Assembly: GCF_037392515.1 (NCBI RefSeq)
Contig: NC_090283.1
Coordinates: forward strand, 25,498,249-25,562,248
Length of the DNA stretch: 64,000 bases
Direction of reading: 5' to 3'
From: Haliotis asinina
Taxonomy: Eukaryota; Mollusca; Gastropoda; Lepetellida; Haliotidae
The notes beneath the pieces are model-generated. The model was not told the origin of the DNA and did no database searches. It worked only from the letters and a program-made list of their open reading frames with translations. Position numbers and translations under genes: made by a program. Of the stretch, positions 158-61,297 are shown one piece after another; within the stretch, counting starts at the first letter, position 1; each line of letters opens with the position of its first letter.

Positions 158-215
158 GGCACCCGTGGCGAGCCACCTCCTCGTGGTGGTTGCTGGGTAA
201 CGCCAAGAGCTCGCC
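158..215 (+). ncRNA. HDV-like self-cleaving ribozyme, copy A
   Basis: A 58-nt fold at the exact 5' end of the element. P1 is positions 1-7 with 31-37, P2 is GGCGAG (10-15) with CTCGCC (53-58), and P3 is CCAC/GTGG closing loop CTCCTC (20-25). GGGTAAC (38-44) and GCCAAGAG (45-52) supply the joining strands, with C46 as the likely catalytic cytosine. This copy has one P1 mismatch (GGTTGCT instead of GGGTGCT), so it may be impaired. Layout and loop match the HDV-type fold known at the 5' ends of R2 and some other non-LTR elements. Confidence 0.75.
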
Positions 216-723
216 AACACCCCCGTAGTGGACCCGGGGGATATTTGGTCCACCAACCCGTTTGCCGTGGGTTGAGGCCCTGTGTCGGAGGAGGAGGGGA
301 TCCTGGTGGTTGAGGGCAATAGGGGCCTACAATCGTGCTCCTGTTGCTCAATACACCACTTTGGCCCTGACTTCACCTAGACGGGTGGTTGAATGGGCCC
401 GGTTCAACCAATCGGCTGGTCATGCCAAGCCCATGTGCACTGTATTTGATATTGCACACTTTTGATTTAAATAAATGATCCTGATAAAGGTATTGATCAA
501 ATACTTCACTAAATTTCTATTGATTTAAAGCTTTAACAAATACATATTTTGCCTAGAGTCTAAAAGCCCAGAAGGCGGTGGCTCATGGGCCAATCTGGTA
601 GATCAATTATTTATAATTCTTCTGCTGGAGTATATCATCTGAGTATCCTTGGTGCTGCAAGTCGGAGGCCCACTTGTTTTTAGCATTGTCCTTGTGATAC
701 TCCGTGGTGGGTGGGGAGCTCAG

Positions 724-1673
724 ATGATGAACCATATTAAACTAACTATGGCGTATGAAACCCCAACCAAAAAAACAAAACGTCCACTTGATATTGACCC
801 TGTTGATACTGACCATAGACCGTCTGCATCGATTGAATATTGGCCGCGTTTCGTTGTTATTGAGACTCCTGACAAGACAGCGTTAAAGTTGAACCCCTTT
901 GCTGTATCCAAGGGTATTCAAGGTGTTGCTGGAGAGGTGAAAAACTTAGACGCTTGCGTTCGGGTGCCCTGCTAGTCGAATGCGGGAAAAAGCAGCAAGC
1001 AACGAACCTGATGAACATGAAATCTTTCGTGGGCATTCCGGTCACGGTCTCTGCTCACAAGACCTTGAATACTAGTAAAGGTATCATCAGAGATCGTGAT
1101 CGATTGTTTGCTGATATGTCCGAAATTGACATAGGATCAGAAATGAAAGATCAAGGTGTGCTGTATGTGAAGCGCTTTTCAACCCGAAAAAGCAATGAAA
1201 CATTCCAAACTAATACCTATCTGTTTACTTTTTCATGTCCAAATGCTCCTAAATCAGTGAAGGCAGGCTATTGTAACATACATGTTGATACCTACATCCC
1301 CAACCCGCTCAGGTGTTTTAAATGCCAGAAATATGGACGTGGCGTGAATACTTGCACATTGTCTGTGATTGTGACAGTGATTATAAAAAATGCACCAATT
1401 GCTCAGGCGACCATTCTTCATTTTCTAAGCATTGTCCTATTTGGAAAGAGCAAATGGAAATCAATAAAATAAAATTTACTCAAAATATCTCTTTTTCCGA
1501 GGCCAAAAAACTGGTAAAGACATCTGATCTTCCACAAACTTATGCTACAGTAGCAAAAACATCATCGAGATCTAAATCTAACACTACATCAACCACAGGC
1601 TGCCAAACTACCTTGACTTGGGTAAATTGCGATTCTCCACAGCTTTTGTACCCTGCTATATCATCACAGACTG
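724..1673 (+). pseudogene. LINE copy A ORF1 (gag-like), broken and truncated
   Basis: ORF1 would encode the nucleic-acid-binding gag-like protein of the LINE. It begins at tandem ATGs (724/727) after the conserved 'gtggtgggtggggagctc' leader. A Lys/Arg-rich N-terminus leads to an RRM-like region ('WPRFVVIET...LNPFAVSKGIQG') and then a CCHC knuckle CFKCQKYGRGVNTC. There is a frameshift near 945. A deletion near 1365 removes the middle knuckle and shifts frame again, and the third knuckle follows in the new frame. The ORF is cut off at 1673 by the 5' end of copy B. Not functional. Confidence 0.85.
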
Positions 1674-1731
1674 GGCACCCATGAAGAGCCACCTCCTCGT
1701 GGTGGGTGCTCGGTAACGCTAAGTGCTCTTC
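1674..1731 (+). ncRNA. HDV-like self-cleaving ribozyme, copy B
   Basis: Same 58-nt layout as the other copies. P1 is GGCACCC/GGGTGCT. P2 is GAAGAG/CTCTTC where the others have GGCGAG/CTCGCC, so two base pairs changed on both sides and pairing is kept. P3 is CCAC/GTGG with loop CTCCTC, and the joining strands are CGGTAAC and GCTAAGTG. This covariation is the strongest evidence that the fold is real. Confidence 0.8.
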
Positions 1732-2268
1732 TCCCGTGTGGACCCAGGACAGAATGTGTCCACAGCACCCCATTGCTTGTCGTAAGAGGCGACTAAATTG
1801 GGCAACCTGTTTGCCGTGGGTTGCGTCCCGTGTCGGTGGAGGACGGGATCCTGGTGGTTGAGGGCAGTTGGGCTTTTAACTGTGTTCCATTTGCCCAACA
1901 CACCACTTCGGCCCTTACTCCACCTAGACAGGTGGTTGAATGGGCCCGATTCAACCAATCGGCTGGTCATGCCAAGCCCTGTGCATAGACTACATATGTG
2001 TCATTGCAGAAATCTGATTTGGAATTATTCTGAAGTTTGGTCTTGGCCCTATTGTTAATCTGTAAATTTCAGTATTGTATATTATGATCATATTAACTTT
2101 GCCTAGAGTCTTGTGCCAGAAGGCGGTGGCTCAAGGGCCAATCTGGTAGATTAATTTCCTAATTCTTCTACTAGAGTATATCATCCGAGTATCCTTGGTG
2201 CTGCAGGCTGGAGGTCCGCTTGCTTTAGCATTGTCCTTGTGATACTCCGTGGTGGGTGGGGAGCTCGG

Positions 2269-3565
2269 ATGATGAACCAAATTAAACTCACCATGGCTTA
2301 TGAAATTCCACCCAAGAAAACAAAACGTTGACTTGAAACTGACTCTTATGATACTGACCATAGACCGTCTGCATTGATTGAGTATTGGCCACGTTTCGTT
2401 GTGATTGAGACTCCTGACAAGACACCTTTAAAGCTTAACCCCTTTGCTGTCTCCAAAGGTATTCAAGGTATTGCTGGAGAAAAACATTAGACGATTACGT
2501 TCGGGTGCACTGTTAGTTGAATGTAGTAAAAAACAACAATCCACCAACCTGATGAACATCAAATCTTTCGTGGGCATTACCGTCACAGTGTCTGCTCACA
2601 AAACACTGAACACAAGCAAAGGTATCGTTAGGGATCGAGACCGATTGTTTGACGATATGTCGGAACTTGATATAGGATCAGAAATGAAGGATCAAGGTGT
2701 ACTCTACGTCAAGCGCTTTTCAACCCGGAGAAACAACGAAACCATCAAAACGAATACGTATCTGTTTACTTTTTCCTCTCCAAATGCACCCAAATCAGTG
2801 AAGGCAGACTACTGTAATATTCAGGTTGATATATACATCCCCAACCCGCTCAGGTGTTTTAAATGCCAGAAATATGGACACGGTGTATCTACCTGCACAT
2901 TGTCTGTTGTATGTGCTCACTGTGGTGAGAAGACACACACAACAGAAGATTGTGACAGTGACTTTAGAAAATGCACCAACTCCTCAGGCGACCATTCATC
3001 TTCGTCAAAACAGTGCCCAATATGGAAAGAGCAAATGGAAATAAACAGAATAAATTATACCCAAAACATCTCTTTTTCTGAAGCAAAAAAAATGGTAAAG
3101 AGATCTGACCTTACAGAAAGTTATGCTACAGCCCCAAAACCACCATCTGAGTCCAGATCTAAAATAACAAAATCATCTACAGGCTGCCAAACTACCTTGA
3201 CTTGGGTAAATTGCGACTCTCCACAGCTTTTATCTCCTACTATGTCATCTCAGACTGAGGAATCACTTCCTAGTACCTCAAAGTCTTCTTCTGATAACAA
3301 ATCATCATCTCAGTCAAACTCAAAGTCTCAGTCGACAGCTGATAGTCAGCAAACGGTAAAAAGTAAACCGAAGCCAAAGCCTGATGCTTCAAAACAACAA
3401 AGTGGCAGAGCTCCTAAAGGGTCACAGAACAAAATTCAATTGTTCAATAAATACGGGTCTCTTGAAGACATGGACGTTTCTGAAAACGTCCATTCTAGGG
3501 CACATAGCTTGTCGCCCTCCAAAAGAGTACGGGGTAGATCCCCAATAAATCCCCCCAAACGATAG
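2269..3565 (+). pseudogene. LINE copy B ORF1 (gag-like), disabled at the 5' end
   Basis: Begins at tandem ATGs at 2269/2272. A TGA at 2329-2331 and a small deletion near 2481 break the first quarter. From 2444 the frame is open for 373 codons. It shows the RRM-like region, three zinc knuckles (2851-3023: CFKCQKYGHGVSTC, then CAHCGEKTHTTEDC, then CTNSSGDHSSSSKQC with the first Cys pair damaged to CTNS), a Ser/Lys-rich linker and a conserved end NPPKR. The stop TAG overlaps the ORF2 frame as ATAG (3562-3565). Confidence 0.85.
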
Positions 3566-6500
3566 TTAATTCCAGTAATATTGTACAGTGGAACTGCAGA
3601 GGATTAAGGACTAATTTAAATGAATTACAGCTATTAGTCCAAGATTTCACACATTCAGTGATATGTCTCCAGGAAACATATTTAAAACAAACAGATACAT
3701 TTGACCTTCGTCATTTTAATGCATATCATTCTTTTTCACCTCCGGGTGACAGGGCCACTGGCGGATCATCCATTCTAGTCAGACAAAACGTTATTCAAAG
3801 CCCTGTTTCACTTAATACTAACATGCAGGCTGTTGCTGTGAGAATTACTTTACATGTAGCGTTTACGCTATGCTCTCTTTATATTTCACCGTCTTCAATG
3901 TTTGCCAAAACTGATCTTCAAACTCTATATGATCAGCTCCCGAAACCCTGTATTATAATGGGAGACTTAAATGGGCACAACCCACTCTGGGGTAGTGTAA
4001 ATATAAACACTAAAGGTAAATTGTTGGAGGACTTTTGTTCTGACAATGATTTATGTATTTATAATGATGGTTCGAGCACATATTTACACCCTGGTACAGG
4101 GACTTATTCTGCTCTCGACTTGTCATTGACAAATTCAGAACTACTAAATGAATTCGAATGGTCAGTCCACGATGACCTCTGTGGAAGTGACCATTTTCCT
4201 ACTGTATTAAAATCTGTAACTCCATCCGATGTTCCTCCATCATCAAGACGGAATTTTAAAAAGGCTTACTGGGCATTATATGAAACACTGTGTGCTGAAA
4301 AACTTAAACCCGAACGTTTTATTGACGTTCCTGATGCTATTAAATCTTTTTCTGAGGAACTGAATTCCATAGCTGATGAGTGTATACCAAAGTCCTCTGC
4401 AGTTCCACACATAAGAAAACCATGGTTCAACGATGAGTGTAAACAAGCTAGGAAGGCAAGGAAAAAAGCAGAACATTATTTCCGTCGCCATCCCATGGTG
4501 CATAATTTCAATAAATTAAAAATTTTAAATGCTAAAGCACGGCGTACTTTTAAACAGAACAAACGCCAATCTTGGCAAAATTATGTATCCAAAATAAATT
4601 CTCGGACACCCATGTCCAAGGTATGGAACATGGTCCAGAAAATTAAAGGCAAGGGTACTAAATCTACTGTCCATCATCTTAAACATGGAGATCAGTTACT
4701 AACAGATAAATTAGATATTGCGAATAAACTGGGTGAAACCCTCGCTAAACACTCTTCCTCTTCTAATTATGTACCTAAATTCCAGCAGTATCAAAAACAA
4801 CAAGAAAAGAAAAGTATTAATTTCAATTCTGATAATGGGGAAGATTATAATGAAACATTTTCTATTCATGAACTCCATACTGCTCTTGATCAAGCTCATG
4901 ACACTGCAACTGGAGCTGATAACATACATTATCAACTCCTGAAGCATTTACCAGAATCCTGTTTAGAGACGCTCTTATCAATATTTGATGATATTTCGAC
5001 ATCCGGGAAATTTCCTTCTTCATGGCGTGATGCTATACTGGTACCAATACTTAAACCTGGACGTGATCATACGGATCCATCCAGTTATCGTCCGATTTCA
5101 TTAACTAGCTGTGTTTGCAAGACCATGGAACGCATGATAAATAATCGACTTGTTTGGTACTTGGAAAGAAATAACCTTATCACAGATATACAATGTGGTT
5201 TCCGTAAAAACAGAAGTACTGTCGATCACTTAGTGCGTTTAGAGTCTTTTGTGAAAAACGCGCTGGTTAATAAGCAACATGCTGTGGCTATCTTTTTTTA
5301 TCTTGAGAAGGCATATGACACAACCTGGAAGTATGGCATTCTGAGAGATCTACATGATTTCGGTTTGCGTGGTCGTTTGCCTCAATTCATAGGCAAATTT
5401 TTATATAACAGGCAATTTCAATTCCGTGTGGGTTCTACCCTGTCTGATCATTACAATCAGGATCAGGGTGTTCCACAAGGCAGTATTTTGTCAGTCACAC
5501 ATTTTAGTATAAAGATAAATAGTTTATCTAAAGTTTTAAATGATTCCATTGATAGATCCTTATTTGTGGATGATTTTAATATTCTTGTCGTGGTAAAAAT
5601 ATGCATACCATAGAGCGGCAGTTGCAGTTGTGTTTAAACAAAATAAATAAATGGTGTCTTGAAAACGGCTTTAAATTTTCTAAATCGAAAACTAGTTGCA
5701 TACATTTTTGTCGTAAGTACAAACCACATAAAGACCCTGAACTATCTCTAGATGGCACTCCCATTAAAGTTGTCAAGGAAGCCAAGTTCTTGGGATTAAT
5801 TTTTGACTCACACCTTACGTTTCTGCCTCATATTAAATCTCTTAAAACTAAATGCCTGAAAGCACTTGATTTGTTGAAAGTGGTATCAAATTCTAAATGG
5901 GGAGGGGATCAAACTACCCTCCTCCATTTATATCGATCACTTGTCCGTTGTAAACTTGATTATGGATCCATCGTATATGGTGGAGCCTGCAAAAGCAATC
6001 TTAAACTTCTTGATCCTGTCCATCATCAAGGTCTGAGACTTTGTCTTGGGTCCTTTAGAACTTCACCTATTGACAGTCTCTATGTTGAGGCTGATGAACC
6101 TTCTCTTGAGCAGCGCCGTATAAAGTTAGCTTTACAGTACATTACTAAATTATACTCTAATCATTCTAACCCTGCATATAACTGTGTTTTCAATCCCCTT
6201 CATGAGGATTTATACAACAAAAAGTCTTCTCTTGTCCCGCCTCTCGGACGTAGAAATAAACCCTTTCTTTCTGCTGCTGGCATTCATTTGGAAAACATAG
6301 CTCCCTCCCGTCTTCTTTCTTCTCCTCCCTGGCAGTTGGTTAGGCCCCAAGTGGACCTAACACTGACCACATTTAAAAAATCAGAAACTAATGAATTACA
6401 GTATAAACAAGAATATAATGAATTGAAACATAAATATAGCAGTTATAAATCCTTATTTACAGATGGGTCCAAGGACGGTGGCGCAGTAGCTTGTGCCACT

Positions 6501-6901
6501 GTCATTGGATCCAGAACAATATCTTCTAGATTACCAGACAACAGTTCTATTTTACCGCTGAGGTTAATGCCATATTAACAGCTCTTAAATATATTCAAAG
6601 ACGCCATAAACATAAACAATATATCATCTATTCCGACTCTCTTTCTTGCCTTCAGGCTATTAAAAAGCTTTCTTGTAAACATCCACTTTTGATAGAAATT
6701 ATTGAATTATATAATGATCTTGCTACTGGCCAATACGACATCGTCTTCTGTTGGTTACCCAGTCACGTTGGCATTTCCGGTAACGCAATGGCCGATCTTG
6801 CTGCTAAGGCAGCACTTAACAAATCTGTGACACCACTTCGTATTCCTTATTCTGACTACAAAGCTAGCATTAGAGCTTACACTCGTGATCTGATGCAGAA
6901 G
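3562..6901 (+). pseudogene. LINE copy B ORF2 (endonuclease-RT-RNase H), first part
   Basis: This is the retrotransposition enzyme. Domains in order: an APE-type endonuclease from the VQWNCRGL motif (about 3583), with 'ICLQETYLK', 'MGDLNGHNPLWG' and 'CGSDHFPT'; a Lys/Arg-rich linker; RT with 'IPILKPGRDHTDPSSYRPISLTS', 'YLEKAYDTTW' (one D changed to Y), 'QGVPQGSILS' and an FVDD catalytic box (about 5565-5578); and RNase H with 'LFTDGSKDGG', 'YSDSLSC' and 'WLPSHVGISGN'. A frameshift near 5590 splits RT from the thumb, and another near 6560 disrupts RNase H. There is no ATG at the start: the stop-start overlap has ATA. It is cut by copy C and resumes at 13035. Confidence 0.9.
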
Positions 6902-7455
6902 TGAGTGAGTAAGTGAGTGAGTGAGTGAGTTAATGTTCAACGTCACATCGGCAATATCTCAGCCATATCGTGACGAGAACATTTAAATTAAATATATGCA
7001 TATGGAAAAATCTGTCAACAGACAGTAAAACAACTAGCATATCACAATTTTAATTAAAACTAGTATGGAAAGTTAAAACTAATAGCACTATTTAGACAAT
7101 ACATAATAAAAAAGGACTACAGGTCGCCAACAAGTGAAGGTAGATCACCACATTAGGGACCATGGGGACTTAAAGTACCTTTGCTACCTACATGGACCCT
7201 AGTTGGATTTACATCATCCCCTCAGCTGCTGGCGATTGTACGAAAGGTTAGCCAAAATTAAAACAACATGAATACTACGATTAAAACCTGGTAGACTTAA
7301 ATTTACTGTGAATGTTTGTGGACTTACGTACCCTCTCAGGAGGACAATAATTTTACAATACTTCAACCCCCTTTGAGGGTACAGCCACCAACAATTCTAG
7401 TTACTAATTCAAACTACCAATCATTAAAATACATCTATTTACAGAAACATACTAT
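6902..7455 (-). other. 3'UTR and (ACTC)n tail of LINE copy C
   Basis: Non-coding. It contains the conserved long stem (7328-7382): a GTACCCTC arm pairing with GAGGGTAC, extended inward by an AGGNGG/CCTCCT arm. The conserved terminal block 'atatggctgagatattgcc' (read on the minus strand) leads into the short-repeat tail. Confidence 0.8.
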
Positions 7456-10400
7456 TCAAAATTCACCCAAAATATCAATTTCTTTTAAAAAACCTATAAT
7501 AAAATGAGAATTAACGTTGGTAAAAAGATCCTTCATTGTTTTAGCTGTAAAATATTTATCCCTTGTGATAGAGAATTCAACACAGTCAAGCAGAATATGC
7601 TTGACCGTGACTCTCTCATCACAAGGGATGCAAAATCGAGGATCCTCACCTTTCAACAGGTATGCATGAGTATATCTAGTGTGGCCAATACGACATCGTC
7701 GTAGTATGACCTCTTCAAATCTGGACTGACAACCCAAATGGGTATAACCAATGTAAGGTTTTATCTCATGTAATTTATTTATACCCACTTGGGTGTCCCA
7801 CTTCTTTTGCATCAGATCACGGATATAAGATCTAATGGTGGCTTTGTAATCACTGTAGGGAATAAGAAGCGGTGTCACAGATTTGTTTACTGCTGCCTTG
7901 GCAGCAAGATCGGCCATTGTGTTCCCTGAAATGCCTACATGGCTGGGTAACCAACAGAAGACGATGTCGTATTGGCCAGTAGCAAGATTATTATACAATT
8001 CAATAATGTCAATTAAAAGTGGATGTTTACAAGAGAAATTTTTAATCGCCTTGTGACAAGAAAGAGAGTCTGAATAGATTATATATTGTTTACGTTTAGG
8101 GTGTCTTTGAATATATTTAAGAGCTGTTAATATGGCGTTAGCTTCTGCTGTAAAAATAGAACTACTATCTGGTAATCTAGAAGATATTGTTCTGGATCCA
8201 ATGACAGTGGCACAAGCCACAGCGCCACCATCCTTGGACCCATCTGTAAATAAGGATTTATAATTGCTATATTTATGTTTTAATTGATTATATTTTTCCT
8301 TATATTGTAATTCATTAATCTCTGATTTTTTAAATGTGGTCAATGTTAGGTCTACTTGAGACCTGACCAACTGCCAGGGAGGAGAAGAAAGAAGACGGGA
8401 GGGAGCTATGTTTTCCAGCTGAATCCCAGCAGCAGAAAGACAAGGTTTAATTCCATGTCCCAGAGGGGGGACAAGAGAAGACTTATTGTTGTATAAATCC
8501 TCATAAAGGGGATTGAAAACACAGTTATATGCAGGGTTAGAATGATTAGAGTATAATTTAGTAATGTATTGTAAAGCTAACCTTATACGGCGCTGCTCAG
8601 AAGAAGGTTCATCAGCCTCAACATAGAGACTGTCAATAGGTGAACTTCTAAAAGATCCAAGACAAAGTCTCAGACCTTGATGATGGACAGGATCAAGAAG
8701 TTTAAGATTGCTTTTGCAGGCTCCACCGTAAACGATTGAGCCATAATCAAGTTTAGAACGAACTAGTGATCGATAGAGATGGAGAAGGGTAGCTTGATCC
8801 CCTCCCCATTTTGAATTTGAAACCACTTTCAACAAGTCAAGTTCTTTCAGGCATTTAGTTTTAAGTGATTTAATATGTGGTAAAAAAGTTAAATGTGAAT
8901 CAAAGATTAGACCCAAGAACTTGGCCTCCTTCACAACTTTAATGGGCGTCCCATCTAGAGACAGTTCAGGGTCTTTATGTGGTTTATATTTACGACAAAA
9001 ATGTATGCAGTTAGTTTTCGATTTAGAAAATTTAAAGCCGTTTTCAAGACACCATTTATTTATTTTGTTTAAACAAAGCTGCAGTTGCCGTTCAATTGTA
9101 TGCATATTTTTACCACGACAAGAAATATTAAAATCATCCACAAATAACGATCCATCATTTGAAACGATTAAAACTTTTGATAAACTATTTATCTTTATGC
9201 TAAAATGTGTGACAGACAGAATACTGCCTTGTGGAACACCCTGATCCTGATTGTAATGATCAGACAGGGTAGAACCCACTCGAACTTGAAACTGTCTGTT
9301 ATTTAAAAAGTTGGCAATAAATTGAGGTAAACGACCTCGCAATCCGAAGTCATGTAAGTCTTTTAAAATACCATATTTCCAGGTTGTGTTATATGCTTTT
9401 TCGAGATCAAAAAAGATAGCCACAGCATGTTGTTTATTAATTAGTGCGTTTTTAACAAATGATTCTAAACGCACTAAGTGATCGACAGTACTTCTGTTTT
9501 TACGGAAACCACACTGTATATCAGTTATAAGGTTATTTGTTTCCAAGTACCAAACAAGTCGATTATTTATCATGCGTTCCATGGTCTTGCAAACACAGCT
9601 AGTTCACGAAATCGGCCGATAATTGGATGGATCGGTGTGATCACGTCCAGGTTTAGGTATGGGTACTACTATGGCGTCACGCCATGATGAAGGAGAGTTA
9701 CCCGATGTCCAAATATCATCAAAAATATTGAGAAGAGTTTCTAGGCAGGATTCTGGTAAATGCTTCAGGAGTTGATAATGTATGTTATCAGCTCCTGTAG
9801 CAGTATCATGAGCTTGATCAAGAGCAGTATGGAGCTCATGAATAGAAAATATTTCATTATAATCTTCCCCATTATCTGAGTGGAAATTAATACTTTTCTT
9901 TTCTTGTTGTTTTTGATACTGTTGGAATTTAGGTACATAATTAGAAGAGGAAGAGTGTTTAGCAAGGGTTTCACCCAGTTTATTTGCGATATCTGACTTA
10001 TCAGTAAGTACTTGATCTCCATGTTTAAGATGATTGACACTAGATTTAGTACCCTTACCTTTAATTTTCTGGACCATATTCCATACCTTGGACATAGGTG
10101 TCCGAGAATTTATTTTGGATACATAATTTTGCCAAGATTGGCGTTTGTTCTGTTTAAAAGTACGCCGTGCTTTAGCATTTAAAATTTTTAATTTATTTAA
10201 ATTATGCACCATGGGATGGCGACGGAAATAATGTTCTGCTTTTTTCCTTGCCTTCCTAGCTTGTTTGCACTCATCGTTGAACCATGGTTTTCTTACGTGT
10301 GGAACTACAGAAGAATTTGGTATACACTCATCAGCTATGGAGTTCAGTTGATCAGAAAAAGATTTAATAGCATCTGGAACGTCAATATAAAAAGTTCAGG

Positions 10401-11147
10401 TTTAAGTTTTTCAGCACACAGTGTTTCATATAAAGTCCAGTTAGCCTTTTTAAAATTTCGTCTTGAAGATGGAGGAACATCAGATGGAGTTATAGGTTTT
10501 AATACAGTAGGAAAATGGTCACTTCCACACAGGTCATCGTGGACTGACCATTCAAATTCATTTAGTAGTTCTGAATTTGTCAATGACAAGTCAAGAGCAG
10601 AATAGGTCCCCGTACCAGGGTGTAAATACGTGTTGGAACCATCATTATAAATACATAAATCATTATCAGAACAAAAGTCCTCCAACAATTTACCTTTAGT
10701 GTTTGTAGTTACACTAGCCCAGAGTGGGTTGTGCCCATTTAAATCTCCCATTATAATACAGGGCTTCGGGAGCTGATCATATAGAGCTTGAAGATCGGTT
10801 TTGGCAAACGCCAAAGACGGTGAAATATAAAGAGAACACAATGTAAACGCTATATGTAAAGTAATTCTCACAGCAATAGCCTGCAAATTAGTAATAAGTG
10901 GAACAGGGCTTTGAATAACGTTTTGTCTGGCTAGAATGGATGATCCGCCAGTGGCCCTGTCACCCAGAGGTGAAAAACAATGATATGCATTAAAATGACG
11001 AAGGTCAAATGTATCTGCTTGTTTTCAATATGTCTCTTGGAGACATAACGCTGAAGGTGTAAAATCTTGGACTAATAGCTGTAATTCATGTAAATTAGTC
11101 CTCAATCCTCTACAGTTCCACTGTACAATATTATTGGAATAAACTAT
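7456..11147 (-). pseudogene. LINE copy C ORF2 (endonuclease-RT-RNase H)
   Basis: The longest surviving ORF2 segment is 708 codons (9582 to 7456), covering the RT palm from 'MERMINNRLVWYLE' through FVDD (about 9130-9150), thumb, complete RNase H ('LFTDGSKDGG', 'TAEANAILTAL', 'YSDSLSC', 'WLPSHVGISGN') and the terminal zinc-like motif 'CIPCDERVTVKHILLDC'. Upstream, an in-frame TGA (9604-9606) replaces the Leu codon after RPIS. A frame break near 10340 and stops near 11010-11035 disable the endonuclease. The start is again ATA in an ATAG overlap with the ORF1 stop. Confidence 0.9.
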
Positions 11148-12472
11148 CTTTTTGGTGGGTTAATAGGGGATCTACCCCTCACCTTTTTCGAGGGCGACAA
11201 GCTATGTGCCCTGGGATGGAAGTTTTCTGACACTTCCATGGCCTCAAGCGATCCGTATTTATTGAATAATTTTACAGGATTTTCTGAACCCTTCTGAGGT
11301 CTGCCACCCTTTTTTGAAGATTCTGTTCTTGAGTCAGTTTTACTTTGAACAATATTCTTCGAGCTTGTTTTTGATCGTGATTTGTGAGTTTCTTGAGATA
11401 AAGATTGTTCTCCGGATACAGATGAAGTCTGACTACAGGACTGTGACCCGGCTTTAAATACCACCTGAGTGTTGACAGAAGATGTCAAGGTTTGCGTAGA
11501 CTGTTCGGGTGCAACGAACTGAGCATTATTTGTTTTAACCCACGTCAAATCTGTCTGCCAATGTATCGACGAGGTAGTTACTTTTGAGGTATATTCAGGA
11601 GTTCTGACAACGGATGCAAATGATTCAGTATGTGCTGCAGATTCCACAAGTTTTTTGGCGTCAGAAAAGCTGACGTTCTGGGTGAATTTAATTTTATTGA
11701 TTTCCATTTGTTTTTTCCAGACTGGACACTCTTTGGCGAAAGACGAATGATTTCCCGAACAATTTGTACACTTTTTATGGTCACTGTTACAGTCTTCTGT
11801 AACATGAGTATTCTAACTACAGTGGGCGCATGTTATGGGCTTGGTACAAGTGTTAACACCGTGTCCATACCTTTGACATCTAAAACATCTCAAATGATTT
11901 GGGATGTACACGTCAACTGAAATACTACAGTAACCTGCTTTAACGGACTTTGGAGGATTTGGCGATGAGAAGGAGAACAGATAAGTATTTGTTTGGACCG
12001 TTTCATTGTTTCTGCGGATCGTGAATCTTTTAACACAAATCACTCCCTGACCTTTCATCTCAGAAGCAATATCCAACTCAGACATATCAGCAAATAATCC
12101 ATCTCTGTCTCTGATTATGCCTTTACTGGTATTCAGAGTCCTGTGGGCAGTGATAGAGACGGGAATTCCAACAAATACTTCTGTTGACATGAGGTTCTTT
12201 GCTTGCTGTTTTCTGTTGCATTCAACCAACAGAGAGCCTGAATGCAAGCGTCTAACGTTTTTAACCTCACCTGCAATGTCATGTATACCCTTGGAAATGG
12301 CAAAAGGGTTAAGTTTCAGTGGCGTCTTGTCTACAGTTTCTATAACTAAAAATCGTGGCCAATAGTCGATTGAGTTGGAAGGTCGTTGGTCGTCATCATC
12401 GTTGTCAAGTTGACGTTTATTGCGTTTTTGGGGGGTTTGGTATTCCATAGGTATGTCTATATGTTTCATCAT
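11144..12472 (-). pseudogene. LINE copy C ORF1 (gag-like), one in-frame stop
   Basis: ORF1 reads in one frame from tandem ATGs at 12472/12469 to the NPPKR terminus. A single TAG (11813-11815) interrupts it inside the second zinc knuckle, just after 'CAHCS'. It contains the RRM-like core, a first knuckle CFRCQRYGHGVNTC, and a third knuckle CTNCSGNHSSFAKEC beyond the stop. This is the least damaged NPPKR-type ORF1 in the window. Confidence 0.87.
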
Positions 12473-12976
12473 CCGAGCTCCCCACCCACCACGGAGTATC
12501 ACAAAGGACAATGCTAAACACAAGCGGGTCTCCAACTTGCAGCACCAAGGATAGTCAGATGATATACTCCAGCAGAAAAACCAAAAGATTAATTCTTCCA
12601 CCAGATTGGCCCATGAGCCACCGCTTTCTGGGCATAAGACTCTAGGCAGAATTCATGTAAACAAAATTCAAGTCAAATAATATTCTGAGCAAAGGGTGCC
12701 AAGACTAAAGTTTAAACAATTCCAAAACAAATTTGTGCAATTACATATTATCTATGCACAGGGCTTGGCATGACCAGCCGATTGGTTGAACCGGGCCCAT
12801 TCAACCACCCGTCTAGGTGAAGTCAGGGCCAAAGTGGTGTATTGGGCATTAGGAACACTGGTCCTGCTCCCATGCCCTCAACCACCAGGATCCCCTCCTC
12901 CACCGACACAGGGCCGCAACCCACGGCAAACGGGTTGGTGGACCAAATATCCCCCCGGGTCCACTACTGGGGTGTT

Positions 12977-13034
12977 GGCGAGCTCTTGGCGTTACCCAGC
13001 ACCCACCACGAGGAGGTGGCTCGCCACGGGTGCC
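12977..13034 (-). ncRNA. HDV-like self-cleaving ribozyme, copy C
   Basis: On the minus strand, all helices are intact: P1 GGCACCC/GGGTGCT, P2 GGCGAG/CTCGCC, P3 CCAC/GTGG with loop CTCCTC, joining strands GGGTAAC and GCCAAGAG. The first ribozyme base directly abuts the target duplication of copy C, as expected if self-cleavage sets the 5' end of the RNA. Confidence 0.8.
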
Positions 13035-13376
13035 CTGATGCAAAAGAAGTGGGACACCCAAGTAGGTATAAATAAACTACATGAAATAAAACCCTACATT
13101 GGTTATACATACTTGGGTTGTCAGTCCAGATTTGAAGAAGTCATTTTGCGACGATGTCGTATTGGCCATACAAGATACACTCATGCATACCTTTTAAAAG
13201 GTGAGGATCCTCCGTTTTGTATCCCTTGTGATGAGAGAGTCACGGTCAAGCATATTCTGCTTGACTGTGTTGAATTCTCCATCACAAGGGATAAATTTTT
13301 CAATGTCAAAACTATCAAGGACCTTTTTAGCACTGTTAGTTCTCATTTAATCATTGTTTTTTTTAAAAGAAATTGA
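13035..13376 (+). pseudogene. LINE copy B ORF2, C-terminal part after copy C
   Basis: Continues the ORF2 of B with 'LMQKKWDTQVGINKLHEIKP', 'CQSRFEEVILRRCRIGHTRYTHAY' and the Cys/His motif 'FCIPCDERVTVKHILLDC', which resembles a CCHC finger and is conserved in all copies. It ends at TGA 13374-13376. The 12 bases at the start are the second copy of the target duplication. Confidence 0.88.
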
Positions 13377-13948
13377 TTTTTTTGTGGAATTTTGAAAATT
13401 ATGTTGTGTAAATAGATGCATTTTAATGATTGGTAGTTTGAATCAGTAACTTGAATCGTTGGTGGCTGTACCCTCAAAGGGGGTTGAAGTATTGTAAAAT
13501 TATTGTCCTCCTGAGAGGGTACGTAACTCCACAAACATTCACAGTAAATTTGAGTCTACCAGGATTTTAATCGTAGCATTCATGTTCTTTTGATTTCGGC
13601 TAACTTTTCATACAATCGCCGGCACCTGAAGGGATGGTGTGGATCCAACTAGGGACCATGCAGGTAGCAAAGGTGCTGTGGGTCCTTATGGTTCCTGGTG
13701 TGGTGGTCTACCTTCTGTTGTTGGCGATCTATAGTCTGTTTTTATGTTGTATTGTCTAAATAGTGCTATTAGTTTTAACTTTCCATGCTGGTTTTGATTG
13801 AAATTGTGATATTCTAGTTGTTTTGCTGCCCTTCGTTGACGGGTTTTTATGATTTATATATGCTCTTTTTCATTGTTGAATGTTCTCGTCACGATATGGC
13901 TGAGATATTGCCGATGTGACGTTAAGTATTAACTCACTCACTCACTCA
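13377..13948 (+). other. 3'UTR and (ACTC)n tail of LINE copy B
   Basis: Non-coding. The conserved long stem spans 13468-13522 (GTACCCTC with GAGAGGGTAC, plus inner AGGGGG with CCTCCT). The terminal block 'atatggctgagatattgcc' and 'gatgtgacgtta' precede 'actcactcactcac'. Confidence 0.8.
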
Positions 13949-18200: not shown

Positions 18201-18591
18201 ACAACACAATCTCTATCATTTAGCATATTATCACAAGTGACAAGGTGATATTGTTTATGGTTGTTGTTATTCACTGTTCCCAAACACAAAATAAGTGGGA
18301 TAATGAGTCGGACTTCTTTTCTAAACAGATTGCGCATAGTGAAAGAAACACCCATGCATCTTCACTCCACCGACCACTGTAGTAAGAGCATCAGCATAAT
18401 ACCCCTAACAGAGTGACCCCTGTCCACTGAACAGTAGTGTGTCCCACTCTTATTTCACGCCCCAATTACCTCATTAATTATGTCGTGGGGTCAAACTGTA
18501 AGTAGCCTTTGGGATTTATTAGGTGTGAATTTGAGGCCTTGCGGACCGTTTTACCATCACCCACCAGTTATCTCCCCTTGTGGATCTTTAC

Positions 18592-18681
18592 AAATTGTAA
18601 ATGTCTTGTAAACATCATCTTTCCAAAATTGTAAATGTCTTGTAAACATCATCTTTACAAGACATTTACAAGCTTGTAAAA
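18592..18681. repeat. 33-bp tandem duplication followed by an inverted copy
   Basis: Two 33-bp units around 'gtaaatgtcttgtaaa' (18592-18624 and 18625-18657) are followed at 18654-18669 by the exact reverse complement of that 16-mer, giving a perfect 16-bp stem with a 7-nt loop. No coding frame is associated. Confidence 0.7.
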
Positions 18682-21600
18682 GTGAACTTTTTTTCTAGTG
18701 TAATATGCGAAAAGGTGACACGTCGTTTGTGAATTTTTCACGCTGGTGTATACATAATCTCACTGGTCACCCAGGACAGCACAGCTGGCAACTAACTGTA
18801 TGATGTCCGCAATGAGTTAGCCAAAAATGAGTAACAATCAATCAATCAATCAAGGCAATGGCGGTTAATTCTTTTTAGGAAGGATGTTGTTTTTGCACTC
18901 CTACTTTACAACAGGGTGTATTCAGTATAGCTTACGTAAATCTACACTCATAAACACTGCCTTTGTGACAAATCCGTTGTGGAAGTAATTAATCAATCAG
19001 TGTGTTATCGGTTAATCCTTTGATTGATGTTTGTTTTTGTAACTCAGCTGATAACCCCTCCTGCACCACTTACATGCACATATTAGAGACCTTAATTTAT
19101 AATGTTGAGTATTTACTCCATAATACATTCATTAACTGACCATCAAGTGAATGATGACAAATAACACGTGTAGGTGTATACCATCAAACACGAGTTACAG
19201 CAAGGTAGATGTAATCTCTGTGTCGCATGCAGCCTGAAAACACTTATGGGCCAAAACTATTTTGAGGATACCTACGGAACTTCGTTGTTACATAAGAAAT
19301 GCAAATAGGTATTTGCTGTGTGCTGGGTAAATGTGTATAATCAGTTTTTTACGTAAGAAAATTTTCAGATTTCTCTACCATTGGCAAAGTCGATGTTATT
19401 AGCTTATGAATTCAGATAAATCAACTGTGTGTTGGTATTATCATAGATAATAAACCAGGGTCGAAGCTACCAAAATTAAAGTATGATCTTTGTTATGACA
19501 GCTGGGCCAACCCTCAAAAGTATCTAAATATAAAACTTTGCAATCTTTCGGACTTACATTAAACAAATGGCTTGCTACGTGTATGTAGATACCATACTTT
19601 CACATGACATGATTAAATATAGAGGTAAAAAACACAGAAATAGGATCAAATTGGATCTGTTACTATACCATCCAGGTACCAGAAAAAACTTCGCTGCTGG
19701 TATAGTTTGTCACAATAAGATAAGGAATACCATGGATATTTTTAAATAACGGCATGTGAGATCCGGCCTCCTCACTTTTTAGGGTGAAAACATTCTGCTA
19801 ATGTGGACAGAAGCCTAGTCCCTTTGTCCGTCACGGTCGAGGGAGCGGGTGCTGACCAATGTGCAGTTTGGTTTCGTAATTAGACCGTTGATGAGAAACG
19901 TTATTCGCTCCGCATACGTGCCTGGTTCCGAATCGATTACACATGTGGTCCTGTAGATTTCAAGTGTCAAACAATTAAAGCAACTCTAGTGATTCAGCAA
20001 AAGCCGAAGTATAATCACCAGGATATCTATTTTCCCGAACTTTTCTTCCCGAATTTATTGACCTATTGCCTGTAAGCTGCTCGTGCTGTGTACCAGCCTG
20101 AGAAGATCCGATCACTTGCCTTTCGGTAGATCTAAGAATTCATATGTACGTCTTGTATTATGAGATTTGTTAATTTATGTGATATATGTAATGACATTAA
20201 ATTCCAATGTCCAGATTCATGCACCATTCAGTATCTTGGTAAATTCTGATTACATGCCCTGAGATGAATAACTTAAAACGAATGACCGATAACAACACCA
20301 TACTACTGAAATATTGTTAAGGCAATTGCCCAGCAAATAAGTACCTTGGAATATGGTTTTCTAAAATATGCACCTACGGTTTACCGCATCGTGTCCTAGG
20401 GAATGACGGTGCACACCCAAAATGAGTCAGTTGTCACAGGCAATCTATTTCATCCCCACAAACGGTCTGAGGAATAGAATAAGGACATCAAACAAGACCA
20501 GTTTCTAGACAAACATCATCATTCGCTAAAGGAATTCCGCATTAGCGAAGCCAAAAATATCTCTACGAACATCAATACCACCGCGCACAGCAGCAAGTTC
20601 AGTATCCATTAGGGATAACTGTGGACATATGAGCACACTTGTTTGGACTATTGACTTAACAGTCTCACCTGTAATCTTAGCAACTTTTCCTCGCAACGCC
20701 ATCTCAGCAGCAGGTAACTTATGAACAGGTCTTGAGAAACAAAGCCCTGTATGTTATGTAATATCTTTCACGGGAAGAGTGTAATTGCATTCAACGTATG
20801 GGTAGATGCATACTAATCTCCTACGTCACATGTGTTTTGTGACAATATGACCTGTATCGTAACGACTTGACCTGAGATTCTAAAGCTTTGACTGGATAAC
20901 CGGTGACGTCTCAGTTAGGTAATTTTATAAAGGAACAACTTTTTCATTCATGTTCACTCATACTACAATTTATCTGTATTGTGGGAATATAAACATCGCG
21001 AACGTTATTGTGTTGATGTTGTGAGTCGAAATAAGACATTACATGCGCGGAAAAACATAAACGCAATGTTTCCACCAGCTATGTTAGCCTAATGAAGTAT
21101 CTGCAAACCAAGAAACGGGGTGCTAAAGAGTAGTTTACTGTAGGAGGCTGTAAGAGACCATAACCACTGACATGCATCGTGATGACGAGAAAATGGGTAG
21201 CGACGCAACCTCTTTATGAAATCGATTTCGGTTTGAAACCATCAAAATAACACAAATACGGTTTTCGTCAATTCAGTGCATATACGACGTGTGTAATAAA
21301 TAGAATACACGTGGTCTCATTACATACACATTATATGAGACTTCTGACCTTCCTATCGTATCTGACCTCAGCTTTCGTATAATTCGCATGAAATGAGACC
21401 CCGTGTAGCATTCTCTAGTTAAGTCTAGTTAACTTAAGTAAGGGTGCAATACTGCTGACTGTGTTATGAGTATAAACAGTCTCACCTGTAATGATCTTAA
21501 AGTGTTCACAATGGAGGATGAAGTCTTTATGTTATATTTATGGAGAAAACGAGTCCTAGTGCTCACATAATTGAAGGTCGTGTTTACTGTTGTTGCTCAG

Positions 21601-21800
21601 AAACACCGAATTAATTTTGAAAGACGACTTTTATGAGTACGCAGTCACAGAGCAAACTATTAGTTCTTTGACTGGCATTCCAGAGGTTTACGAGATCAAG
21701 AATGAGAACTATCTTTATGGTTATACAACTTCTTTATTTTGTATAGGCGACGTTTCAGTATATTTCCTAATCTCATTGTCAAGCAAGTGATACATGAAAA

Positions 21801-21858
21801 GGCACCCGTGGCGAGCCACCTCCTCGTGGTGGGTGCTGGGTAGCGCCAAGAGCTCGCC
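21801..21858 (+). ncRNA. HDV-like self-cleaving ribozyme, copy D
   Basis: All helices are intact: P1 GGCACCC/GGGTGCT, P2 GGCGAG/CTCGCC, P3 CCAC/GTGG with loop CTCCTC, and joining strand GCCAAGAG. The other joining strand is GGGTAGC, one base different from other copies. G1 is immediately after the target duplication. Confidence 0.8.
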
Positions 21859-23208: not shown

Positions 23209-23368
23209 AGTAGTATAGGGAATGGGGGTTCTGGACCACTTTCAAGAAATGTCTCTACAACGCCTTATTTACTAAATAAGACGTTGGTGGGCCCCTTAGC
23301 TCTTGCTACTATTACCCCTACTACAAAAAAGTTGGCGGTAATTACTGTGCCGTACGGTACGATCAATA
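23209..23368 (+). repeat. Polinton left terminal inverted repeat (160 bp)
   Basis: Near-perfect inverse of 37575-37757, with one substitution and a 23-bp gap. It includes a palindrome CTTATTT-ACT-AAATAAG. The missing 23 bp lie between two ACTGTGCC repeats that are both present in the right repeat, so the left repeat has lost one unit by slippage or recombination. Confidence 0.95.
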
Positions 23369-35900: not shown

Positions 35901-36675
35901 GCTCATGAACAACTCGGTGTTTGGTAAGACTATGGAGAACCTGAGGAAACGCGTGACCGTGAAGCTGGTTAGATCTAGTGAGGAAGACAAGCTCAGGAAA
36001 TTGATAGCCAGTCCGGCATTCAACCGTAATAAAATATTTACAGACAACCTGGTTGCCATACACATGAAGAAAAGCCACATAAAATTCAACCGGCCTGTTT
36101 ACGTGGGGATGAGCATCCTCGATTTATCCAAACACCTGATGTACGACTTTTACTACAACGAGCTCAAGAAACAGTACGGCGACAGGTGTGAAGTACTGTA
36201 CACTGACACGGATTCCCTGCTGATGGAGATTCGAACCGAGGACGTGTACGAGGACATGAAAAAACACCTCGATTTATACGACACCAGCGACTACCCTAAG
36301 ACCCATACCCTACACAGTACGGTAAATAAAAAGGTCCTAGGTAAGATGAAGGACGAGTGTGCTGGCACGCCCATAGCCGAGTACATAGGTTTGAGACCTA
36401 AGATGTACTCCATACTGAAAGCCGACAATAGTGAGATCCGGAAGGCTAAGGGGGTTAAGAAGTATGTGGTGAAACAACACATCAAACACGCCAGATTCAA
36501 GGAAGCCCTGTTCAAGACCCGTACCTTTAGACATAAAATGAACACACTTAGAAGTGATGGGCATAAGATATACGGACTGACTATAAACAAGACGTCCCTG
36601 TCGCCTATGGACACGAAACGTTGGATAGCTATTGATGGGATAAACACATACGCGTATGGACATGAAAAAATTTGA
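32986..36675 (+). pseudogene. polB: SAP-repeat/protein-primed DNA polymerase B fusion; one nonsense codon
   Basis: Replicative polymerase of the element. One 1230-codon frame is split by TAA at 33736-33738. Before the stop come three tandem SAP/Rho-N-like repeats (residues 3-32, 38-67, 75-104) and a beta-rich region. After it come a C2H2-like segment 'CERCLHGFTRADLLESHRDDC', exonuclease motifs YADFEA (34291-34308) and HNLRGYDSH, a Cys/His cluster 'CHVCDSPLNGDSVRDHCH', and polymerase motifs DANNLYG, KLMNNSVFGK and YTDTDS (36199-36216). Catalytic residues are all present. An inserted G5-C5 palindrome adds 'GESPTPP' after the first exonuclease motif. The 3' end overlaps the integrase by 20 bp. 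Confidence 0.92.
34317..34336 (+). repeat. G5-C5 palindrome in the polymerase gene
   Basis: GGGGGAATCCCCCACACCCC, identical over 19 bp to the copy at 30910. Sits in frame just after the first exonuclease motif and encodes 'GESPTPP'. Confidence 0.75.
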
Positions 36676-37624
36676 GGCTATTTACTACAGCCCGCGTGGG
36701 TACTGGAAAGGAGCTAACGCAGTAGATAAGCTAGCTAAACTAGCGCGAGTACCCCCGGAGGAAGCCAAAGCGTGGCTTGAAAAACAAGCCCTGTGGCAGA
36801 TCTATTTACCGGCACCACGCTACGTGCCTAGAAGGAGGTTCGGTATTAACATACCTAATAGCATTCACCAGGCAGACCTACTGTTCCTACCCCACGACAA
36901 GAGGTACAAGTATGCCTTAACCGTAGTGGATGTAGCCAGTCGTTACAAGGAAGCCGAACCCTTGACCACGAAAGATTCGGCCCAGGTAGCCAGAGGATTT
37001 GAACGCATATACAAACGCAGCCCACTGACGTGGCCAACAGAGCTGCAAGTTGACCCCGGACGGGAGTTCATGGGTGCCATGTCACAACTGCTAGCCAAAC
37101 ACGATACAAAGGTCAGGCGTGGCACGGCCGGAGCCCATCGCAGCCAAGCCATAGTTGAGAGATTTAATAGGACTTTGGCTGAGCGCTTGTTCGGCTATCA
37201 GTATGCTAGGGAGATGGTCACCCCTGGAAAACGATCGACTGAATGGGTCACGAGGTTACCCAAGGTGGTGTCGGCAATCAACCATGAAGTCACCCGTCTC
37301 ACCAGTAAGAAACCGGCAGACGCTATCAAACTAAAATCAATAGTTGCAGAGTCGGCCGCTCCATTGCGTGGGAAGGAGAAACAGATACCAGATAGGGCCC
37401 TAGTGAGGTATCTATACCAGCCGGGGGAACACGAGGGTGATAGCCGTAAGCGAGCCACCGATCCTATATGGTCAGTCAAAACTTACAACATAGATAAAGT
37501 GGATATGAAAGCCGACGAACCTAACTTATACTACTTGAGGGATGGGCCGGGTAGGGGGTTTGTAAGAGAAGAATTATTGATCGTACCGTACGGCACAGTG
37601 TTACCTCCTACCAAGGCACAGTAA
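36656..37624 (+). CDS. Polinton integrase, DD35E retroviral type (322 aa)
   Basis: Inserts the element into host DNA. The catalytic core has D74 ('HQADLLFL'), D133 ('LQVDPGREF') and E168 ('SQAIVERFN'), giving the DD35E spacing. The N-terminal segment is helical; the C-terminal 100 residues are basic with a beta-rich 'WSVKTYNIDKVD...YYLRD' module and are uninterrupted. The start may be ATG 36656 or 36662. The last 16 or so codons lie inside the right terminal inverted repeat, so the left repeat carries an inverted scrap of this gene. Confidence 0.93.
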   Translation: MDMKKFEAIYYSPRGYWKGANAVDKLAKLARVPPEEAKAWLEKQALWQIYLPAPRYVPRRRFGINIPNSIHQADLLFLPHDKRYKYALTVVDVASRYKEAEPLTTKDSAQVARGFERIYKRSPLTWPTELQVDPGREFMGAMSQLLAKHDTKVRRGTAGAHRSQAIVERFNRTLAERLFGYQYAREMVTPGKRSTEWVTRLPKVVSAINHEVTRLTSKKPADAIKLKSIVAESAAPLRGKEKQIPDRALVRYLYQPGEHEGDSRKRATDPIWSVKTYNIDKVDMKADEPNLYYLRDGPGRGFVREELLIVPYGTVLPPTKAQ

Positions 37625-37757
37625 TTACCGCCAACATTTTTGTAGTAGGGGTAATAGTAGCAAGAGCTAAGGGGCCCACCAACGTCTTATTTAGTAAATA
37701 AGGCGTTGTAGAGACATTTCTTGAAAGTGGTCCAGAACCCCCATTCCCTATACTACT
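37575..37757 (-). repeat. Polinton right terminal inverted repeat (183 bp)
   Basis: Inverse partner of 23209-23368. It retains 23 bp, flanked by two copies of GGCACAGT, that are absent on the left. Contains the integrase stop codon. Confidence 0.95.
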
Positions 37758-41348: not shown

Positions 41349-41559
41349 TGATACATGAAAAATAATTTGCAGCATATCTCTAATGGAAATTTAGACAAAG
41401 TGCTTGAGCTTGTGACGGAGGAGGTAAACAACAGTCCACTTTTGGTTTGGTCTGGTTGTTGGTGGACGCCGCATTCGGCAATACAAAGCTATATGTTAGA
41501 CTGCAAACTGGCTAATCAGTCCAAAGGTCGGTTAGCGTTGATCTTCACTTACCCATGAT

Positions 41560-43435: not shown

Positions 43436-43731
43436 TGCTCCACAGAAAAATGCAGCAGCCTACAGGAGTTAGCCATATTAAGATTTGGAAAAGGTTTAAA
43501 AACTAATCGTGAGCATGGTATCTTGTAAATGTGTCTAGAGCCGCTTTTGAAGAGGCGTGAAGACCAACATCCGACATCTGCACCGCGAGGAAGATTGAAA
43601 AGTTGGTCAAAGACATTTACATAATATACGAAAATAGCAGAAGCAGAGTGTTAACCTACATTAAATACATAATTATCAAATTACATTTTAAAGGATGAAT
43701 CTGATGTTGCCACCTCGGATACTAAATTAGT
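43436..43731. other. Host spacer
   Basis: No gene seen. Its last 11 bases (ACTAAATTAGT, 43721-43731) are the left target duplication of copy E. Confidence 0.6.
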
Positions 43732-44268
43732 TCCCGTGTGGACCCGGGACAGAATGGACAGCACCCCATTGCTTGTCGTAAGAGGCGACTAAATTGGGCA
43801 ACCTGTTTGCCGTGGGTTGCGTCCCGTGTCGGTGGAGGACGGGATCCTGGTGGTTGAGGGCAGATGGGCTTTAAACTGCGTTCCATTTGCCCAACACACC
43901 ACTTTGGCCCTTACTTCACCTAGACGGGTGGTAGAATCGGCCCGATTCTATCAATCGGTTGGTCACGCCAAGCCCTGTGTATGGACTTAATTTTTTGTCA
44001 ATACACTAATCTGTTTGGAAAATGTGTTACTTGTGGTCTTGGCAGAATTGTTCTCTAAACATGTTTATGATTTTGATGTGTGATGTTTTACACTTTGCCT
44101 AGAGTCGTATGCCCAGAAGGCGGTGGCTCATGGGCCAATCCGGTAGATGTGTTATTAATAACTCTTCTGCTGGAGTATATCATCCGAGTATCCTTGGTGC
44201 TGCAAGTTGGAGACCCACTTGTTTTTAGCATTGTCCTTGTGATACTCCGTGGTGGGTGGGGAGCTCGG

Positions 44269-48364: not shown

Positions 48365-48449
48365 AACACTGTTGTCAGAGTTTTTGTTTTTCCTTTCCTG
48401 TGAATGCAGATTTCGGTGGCTGATCGCTCCAAACCGGTACTTTCGGGAC

Positions 48450-48539
48450 GAGGGTTTACTCCTAGTAAAACCTGGGAATAGGTTTTACTTAAATCTAGTT
48501 AAACCTATTCCCAGGTTTTACATTGGGAGTAAAACCTCT
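48450..48539. repeat. Right-end palindrome of the Crypton
   Basis: Inverted repeat with arms GAGGGTTTACTCC (imperfect) and GTAAAACCTGGGAATAGG (near-perfect), separated by a short AT loop. It echoes the arm motif of the left palindrome. Confidence 0.8.
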
Positions 48540-48602
48540 TACCGGGTATTGGTGCAAGTAGAAAGGATAATGACCATTAAAGGCAGTGATCAGAATTAGG
48601 TT

Positions 48603-52349: not shown

Positions 52350-52360
52350 ACTAAATTAGT

Positions 52361-61227: not shown

Positions 61228-61285
61228 GGCGAGCACTTAGCGTTACCCAGCACCCACCACGAGGAGGTGGCTCGCCACGGGTGCC
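61228..61285 (-). ncRNA. HDV-like self-cleaving ribozyme, copy G
   Basis: Intact helices: P1 GGCACCC/GGGTGCT, P2 GGCGAG/CTCGCC, P3 CCAC/GTGG with loop CTCCTC. Joining strands are GGGTAAC and GCTAAGTG, the latter like copy B. G1 abuts the target duplication. Confidence 0.8.
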
Positions 61286-61297
61286 GTATCCTCAAGG

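Follow-up and report, generated by a model that had tools for sequence, protein, structure and literature searches.

An abundant LINE of the mollusc Haliotis asinina begins with a predicted P4-less HDV-like ribozyme

In the main lineages of a LINE from Haliotis asinina, nt 1-58 very probably encode a minimal HDV-like ribozyme of the theta type, which lacks P4. This reading is based on the sequence of a 64,000-nt stretch of the genome (hereafter, the window), which contains several copies of one LINE type, and on searches of the genome and of other contig collections. It agrees with the HDV-like ribozyme proposed in a first-pass annotation of the window, and it is supported by an element boundary at the first base of the fold (G1) at 62 of 70 loci, by a cytosine (C46) that is the same in 62 of 62 copies, by three paired versions of helix P2 and by a core that recurs in viral contigs.

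LINE copies in the window and their 5' ends

The annotation had placed the 5' start of five LINE copies (A, B, C, D and G) at the first base of one 58-nt HDV-like fold, at 158 (+), 1674 (+), 13034 (-), 21801 (+) and 61285 (-), and all five starts proved correct (Table 1). Its wider statement that every 5'-complete copy begins in this way holds for these five but not for the copy at 43732 (+), which starts at nt 59, without the ribozyme, and has an 11-nt target-site duplication.

As the annotation had also claimed, G1 adjoins a target-site duplication in copies C (8 nt), D (13 nt) and G (12 nt). In copy D, a nested Polinton-like element separates the 3' copy of the duplication from the 5' one by 19.5 kb. 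No target-site duplication was found at G1 of copy B, and copy A showed only a 10-nt repeat that does not lie behind a tail, and no duplication at G1 like those of C, D and G. The duplications adjoining G1 in three of the five copies argue that the reverse-transcribed RNA most likely begins at G1, as it would after HDV-like cleavage.

A Pfam scan of ORF1 of copy B gave no match at E 0.001. ORF2 of this copy consists of two overlapping ORFs (3538-5613 and 5580-6578), and APE-like endonuclease and reverse transcriptase domains were found in the first, the sole part of ORF2 scanned in copy B. Copy C (7456-9603, -) showed reverse transcriptase and RNase H domains. Among the named relatives of the LINE protein are a Patella caerulea protein and contigs assigned to bivalve symbionts. 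Copy C (-) appears to be inserted in copy B, the 3' part of which resumes at 13035 in an arrangement that presumably spans 158-13947. Copy B adjoins copy A and may have entered it.

Table 1. Coordinates in the window of the predicted ribozymes, target-site duplications and other features of the LINE copies
Feature	Position	Strand	Remarks
Copy A, predicted HDV-like ribozyme	158..215	+	Descriptor match; P1 with one mismatch
Copy B, predicted HDV-like ribozyme	1674..1731	+	Descriptor and RF02682 matches; P2 type II, GAAGAGC/GCTCTTC
Copy C, predicted HDV-like ribozyme	12977..13034	-	Descriptor and RF02682 matches; P2 type I, GGCGAGC/GCTCGCC
Copy D, predicted HDV-like ribozyme	21801..21858	+	Descriptor match; P2 type I
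Copy G, predicted HDV-like ribozyme	61228..61285	-	Descriptor and RF02682 matches; P2 type I
Copy C, 8-nt target-site duplication	13035..13042	-	Abuts G1; partner 6890-6897 behind tetranucleotide tail
Copy D, 13-nt target-site duplication	21788..21800	+	Abuts G1; partner 41349-41361 behind (ACTC)n tail
Copy G, 12-nt target-site duplication	61286..61297	-	Abuts G1; partner 55958-55969 behind tail
Sister copy starting at nt 59, 5' end	43732..43806	+	Starts directly after the place of the 3' strand of P2
11-nt target-site duplication of the 43732 copy	43721..43731	+	Abuts nt 59; partner 52350-52360
Copy B, position of the likely second H-type pseudoknot	1732..1764 (nt 59-91)	+	First stem with a substitution; not recovered by the script
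Copy B, ORF1	2432..3565	+	CCHC knuckles by eye
Copy B, ORF2	3538..6578	+	Two overlapping ORFs

Predicted fold of the 58-nt block

We apply the HDV names of the parts, P1.1 included, to the 58-nt block and assume that their roles hold here as well; we take C46 to be the general acid. P1 pairs nt 1-7 with nt 31-37 and contains a G1-U37 wobble, J1/2 comprises nt 8-9, and P2 has seven pairs (10-16/52-58). According to the alignment with the Rfam family RF02682, P3 is formed by A18C19C20/G28G29U30, and L3 (nt 21-27) reads UCCUCGU. The nested helices P1, P2 and P3 described in the annotation stand, P2 with seven pairs and P3 with three, but its P3 register, CCAC/GTGG, has to be replaced by ACC/GGU, and its CTCCTC loop was not borne out. 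Because P3 occupies 18-20/28-30 in the corrected register, it stacks directly on P1.

In the same alignment, J1/4 (NGGUAAC) runs into J4/2 (G-C46-YAAG) within one base and there is no P4; this fusion confirms the suspicion that P4 is minimal or absent. The cytosine that had been noted in the GCYAAG joining strand is in place as C46. Possible P1.1 partners are present, CC in L3 and GG at 39-40, and a P1.1 pairing between L3 and J1/4 is a putative part of the fold. Nested-only minimum-energy folding of the five copies gave ordinary values (z of -0.49 to -1.00 versus shuffles), as a fold that relies on a pseudoknot should do, but this lends it no support either.

A descriptor demanding a P1 of at least six of seven pairs from G, a P3 of three pairs, a P2 of at least five pairs, and the letters TNCTNG in L3, GG in J1/4 and CNRA near the end of J4/2 matched, on both strands of the window, the five claimed starts only, and gave 0 matches in 40 dinucleotide shuffles. 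Since the descriptor was written after the sequence had been seen, independent tests weigh more.

Conservation and base pairing among genomic copies

The genome searched comprises 1.14 Gb in 159 contigs. A pattern of the ribozyme core with free P1' positions gave 3124 matches (1561 + 1563), and its reversed control gave 0. In order to avoid choosing copies by the ribozyme itself, an anchor about 100-130 nt downstream of G1 was used, which had 4887 matches; 70 loci were taken among the matches listed (100). The core is present in 63 of these 70 loci, and the whole 58-nt block is in register in 62. The remaining eight are L095, with an internal deletion, L094, with a deletion, L109, which starts inside the block, L092, with no element upstream of the anchor, and L079, L099, L104 and L113, which start at nt 59 or 60. 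Identity between the 62 copies is 92% in the ribozyme and 28% in the 20 nt before G1. C46 never varies among them, C44, which lies in a CpG, differs in 15, and 28 of the 58 positions never deviate from the type consensus. Because the copies are mostly young and so many positions are unchanged, conservation alone is modest evidence, and its value as proof is limited by the decay of single copies.

P2 occurs among the 62 copies in three types, namely type I (GGCGAGC/GCTCGCC, 47 copies), type II (GAAGAGC/GCTCTTC, 10) and type III (GAACGGC/GCCGTTC, 5), and copy B differs from the GGCGAG type in both strands of P2, as claimed. The pairing was scored in a table of 41 distinct rows drawn from the 62 anchor copies and the 5 window copies. 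In these rows, 274 of 287 cells are paired in P1, 279 of 287 (97%) in P2 and 121 of 123 in P3. When the 3' partners were slid by 1-3 columns, the paired share dropped to 33-49% of cells, and to 31-49% for P2. Four of the seven P2 pairs are changed on both sides; the slid controls gave two-sided changes in up to 2 pairs of P2 and in up to 3 over all helices, and the share of paired cells is therefore the stronger measure. Compensatory changes across copies, expected from the annotation, were thus present in P2, but no two-sided change was found in P1 within the genome (41 rows). A search for P2' variants gave 197 matches, mainly of type III among the matches listed (100), and no new two-sided compensation was seen in 20 isolated variants picked by hand among them, as expected of decaying copies.

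If the fold were a product of chance, or the block a selfish conserved repeat without RNA function, recent amplification alone would conserve its sequence, as it would any other. The 40 shuffles without a descriptor match, the two-sided paired changes between the three P2 types and the independent viral examples described below make this explanation extremely improbable.

Viral contigs, Rfam and distant relatives

A core-only pattern, which fixed the letters of the L3/P3 side and of J1/4-J4/2 and left the strands of P1 and P2 free, matched two contigs in a viral contig collection, L044 and L045; a looser pattern found the same two. The helices of L044 (P1 GGAGGAC/GTCCTCT, P2 TGAAAC/GTTTCA) and of L045 (P1 GACTCAC/GTGAGTT, P2 GATAATA/TATTATC) all differ from those of the LINE and are fully paired. 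Three pairs of P1 are changed on both sides in L045 versus the LINE. L045 was entered in the pairing table, and the pairing of L044 was read from a separate alignment. Since the pattern demanded nothing of P1 and P2, the viral pairing is the strongest evidence for the double pseudoknot core. L045 lies among five tRNA genes, none of which G1 adjoins, and no tRNA gene was found in the stretch of L044 examined. No relatives of the LINE protein were found in the viral contig collection.

In a covariance-model search, of the kind suggested in the annotation, RF02682 (HDV-F-prausnitzii) aligned end to end from G1, the claimed first base, in three of the five window copies (B, 28.2 bits; G, 26.3; C, 22.7), but no Rfam match reached the gathering score of 44 bits, and copies A and D were not listed for RF02682 even at E 10. 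The viral contigs L044 and L045 scored 29.3 and 26.9 bits, likewise below the gathering score, and the LINE loci L023 and L019 scored 30.7 and 27.0 bits; the type I locus L009 had no match at E 1. The likeness to RF02682 thus lies in P1, P3, the L3 region, GCUAAG and the end-to-end alignment, with viral and LINE copies scoring alike, whereas a stretch of 15 nt in the model is reduced to one base in the LINE ribozyme and the score stays below gathering.

Relatives of the LINE were found at five loci of a genome contig collection (L039-L043). L040, L041 and L042 are without the 5' region of the element and L043 begins within the 5' UTR. In L039, which has both ORFs (51% identity) and is the one relative that could be read upstream of the 5' UTR, no HDV-like motif was found upstream of the shared UTR block, and its 5' end may be truncated. 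The missing motif counts against the ribozyme reading. Downstream of the ribozyme, a 5' UTR block, GTCGTAAGAGGCGAC...CCTGTTTGCCGTGGGTTG, is strongly conserved between the window (1780-1860) and L039 (6490-6570). Such strong conservation in a relative whose ORF2 is about 51% identical suggests a functional RNA. The LINE of L039 lies in a 537-kb scaffold filed as a genome of the Solemya velum gill symbiont, which is probably host DNA or chimeric.

Copies that start at nt 59

There were 186 type II matches in the genome without the expected base at nt 49. Among the matches listed (100 of the 186), 5 were full-length and 95 truncated at or just before nt 59. In the 90 distinct flanks of these truncated copies, the number of element bases shared before nt 59 was 0 in 61, 1 in 19 and 2-5 in 10. 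The base preceding nt 59 is least often G (9 of 90 flanks), which gives no sign of bases copied from a cap. In a control ten bases further in, 29 matches were obtained, of which 10 break at nt 62-69; each of the remaining 19 either has a different base at nt 59 or starts within nt 60-62. Because the control anchor is a different 25-mer, the two sets of counts can be compared only roughly. Four more copies with an nt-59 start were searched for flanking repeats. L154 has a 13-nt repeat that abuts nt 59 and lies behind a tail, L153 has a 14-nt repeat with one base between repeat and nt 59, and L155 has a 16-nt repeat that abuts nt 59 and has its partner beyond the tail, with 12 nt also just behind the tail. 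For L152, no such repeat was found in 7 kb.

These starts could be reverse-transcription stops at the folded ribozyme, a footprint that P2 has left in the genome. The 3' strand of P2 ends right before nt 59, and the 95 truncated copies among the matches listed, the 61 of 90 flanks that share no base and the 10 of 29 control matches that break at nt 62-69 fit this explanation, as does the nt-59 copy L146, which is 97.6% identical to the ribozyme-bearing L023. Against it, in the 70-locus sample, type I, with the P2 richer in G+C, has 0 ends at nt 59 versus 47 full copies, and type II has 4 ends at nt 59-60 versus 10 full copies. The lineage of L136 is also difficult to reconcile with it. The best 40 of 4998 candidates were scored for this lineage, and flanks were read for 35 starting at or near nt 59. 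Among these, 30 are ribozyme-less with a start at nt 59 (23 distinct flanks), 28 of them at 94-100% identity to L136; one starts five bases further in and four carry the ribozyme, at 85-89% identity. As all 28 flank-read hits at 94-100% that start at nt 59 are ribozyme-less among the best 40 of 4998, the spread of the lineage is not easily explained by a series of stops. Stops as the main explanation were dropped for this reason, and we consider them unlikely. Nt 59 thus seems to be the genuine 5' end of a lineage that lacks the ribozyme, and not just a stop at it.

The spread of ribozyme-less sister copies is a point against the ribozyme model, and their precise ends indicate that this LINE can define 5' ends without the ribozyme. 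The 58-nt block might then be a structured 5' UTR or promoter with G1 as the transcription start, in which the fold is real but cleavage does not set the 5' end. A precise 5' end in copies without the ribozyme speaks in favour of this, and in the available text of PMC4035085 and PMC8256844 one stretch of L1Tc is both promoter and ribozyme. However, a conserved core with different yet paired P1 and P2 in unrelated viral contigs fits a ribozyme, and we regard a promoter without such a role as quite improbable.

Fifteen nt-59 copies and the 43732 copy of the window form several divergent lineages; L151 was left out of the tree and of the neighbour lists. In L136-L150 and the 43732 copy, the first 25 nt after nt 58 are near-identical and the next 780 nt differ by up to about 30%, which suggests a mosaic make-up of the 5' UTR and ORF1 regions among lineages. 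Seven nt-59 copies (L173-L176, L180, L182 and L183) share a near-identical flank over about 1.2 Mb of contig C13 (23.4-24.7 Mb) and are a segmental duplication series carrying the LINE.

A likely second pseudoknot after nt 58

A script for H-type pseudoknots was applied to 86 stretches, nearly all of them the sequence following nt 58. It returned CCCCCG/CGGGGG with GTGGACC/GGTCCAC in 29 (type I) and TCCCG/CGGGA with TGTGGAC/GTCCACA in 17 (type II and nt-59 copies). In another 36, among which are two type III copies and L039 (CCCCG/CGGGG with CGGTG/CGCCG), the pairings are shorter, variant or altogether different. The script found none in 4 of the 86, which include copy B and L151, the latter being too short. 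The second stem is damaged in the 43732 copy. The first stem of the type II version starts with nt 59.

A second H-type pseudoknot at nt 59 is likely from these pairings, and we present it as a lead. The LINE group might even possess two RNA-encoded devices for its 5' end, the P4-less HDV-like ribozyme or, in ribozyme-less lineages, the nt-59 pseudoknot, a reading that we hold to be doubtful. The pseudoknot would in that case be an undescribed self-cleaving RNA, a block to a 5' exonuclease or a start-site element.

Proposed role and comparison with known systems

From the boundary, the core, the P2 pairing with its two-sided changes, the duplications at G1 and the abundance of the copies, we infer a role of the ribozyme in the LINE cycle. 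The LINE would be transcribed within a longer read-through RNA, in which the ribozyme would fold co-transcriptionally and cut immediately before G1. The cut RNA would have the first base of the element as its 5' end and retain the intact ribozyme, and its target-primed reverse transcription would restore the ribozyme, and with it the 5' boundary, wherever the element inserts anew.

Theta ribozymes, as described in the available part of Kienbeck et al. 2024 (PMC10879173), lack P4 and are nearly confined to Caudoviricetes, where the 3' end of a tRNA often lies no more than 5 nt from G1. According to the same text, four phage theta ribozymes cleave in vitro, a C-to-U change kills activity, and the eukaryotic search covered human, mouse and protists. 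The LINE block resembles them in the nested double pseudoknot without P4 and in having the position of the catalytic C first in J4/2 (PMC10879173), and it has the patterned core letters in common with the two viral contigs, in which P1 and P2 were free. Unlike the phage examples of that text, it opens the sequence of an animal LINE and is present in thousands of copies, with mutually unrelated flanks before G1.

R2 LINEs have an HDV-like ribozyme at the exact 5' junction, which frees the LINE from a co-transcript, as stated in the accessible portion of PMC3774820, and a ribozyme predicted at the exact 5' end is what the present LINE has in common with them. R2 is specific to rDNA, whereas no fixed site is seen here, the flanks being 28% identical to each other. 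The present LINE also differs in its APE-like endonuclease, the endonuclease of R2 being of a different type, in the presence of RNase H and in the absence of P4. In L1Tc/ingi, an HDV-like ribozyme is contained in the Pr77 hallmark, which is also a promoter (PMC4035085 and PMC8256844, available text). These elements share with our LINE the 5' HDV-like ribozyme and, in domain content alone, the combination of endonuclease, reverse transcriptase and RNase H, but they are trypanosomatid and their Pr77 doubles as a promoter. No HDV-like ribozyme in a molluscan LINE with RNase H was found in the open-licence literature searched, as represented by the text available from it, in line with the annotation, which knew of no earlier example. 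SART, Baggins and RTE are reportedly listed in Ruminski 2011, and Riccitelli 2014 is said to deal with minimal variants of a sea-urchin ribozyme.

A P4-less HDV-like form, almost phage-only in the available text of one survey, is now predicted at the start of a very abundant LINE that has RNase H and resides in an animal. Minimal HDV-like ribozymes would thereby have a wider host range, and more LINEs would be among their users. Thousands of natural variants are at hand for the study of ribozyme evolution and decay. The spread of sister copies without the ribozyme indicates that its loss is survivable, and with their precise nt-59 ends, the fixing of the 5' end by a ribozyme-less LINE becomes a directly testable question.

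Other mobile elements in the window

Two inverted repeats, 23209-23351 and 37615-37757, are 99% identical over 143 bp. The stretch that they enclose has an integrase core domain (36644-37624, +), and inspection by eye showed a DNA-polymerase-like ORF in it as well; this is a Polinton/Maverick-like element nested in LINE copy D. Long near-perfect inverted repeats with weak miRNA-like Rfam matches were observed at 48447-48541 and 18586-18699, and these are probably hairpins of short mobile elements.
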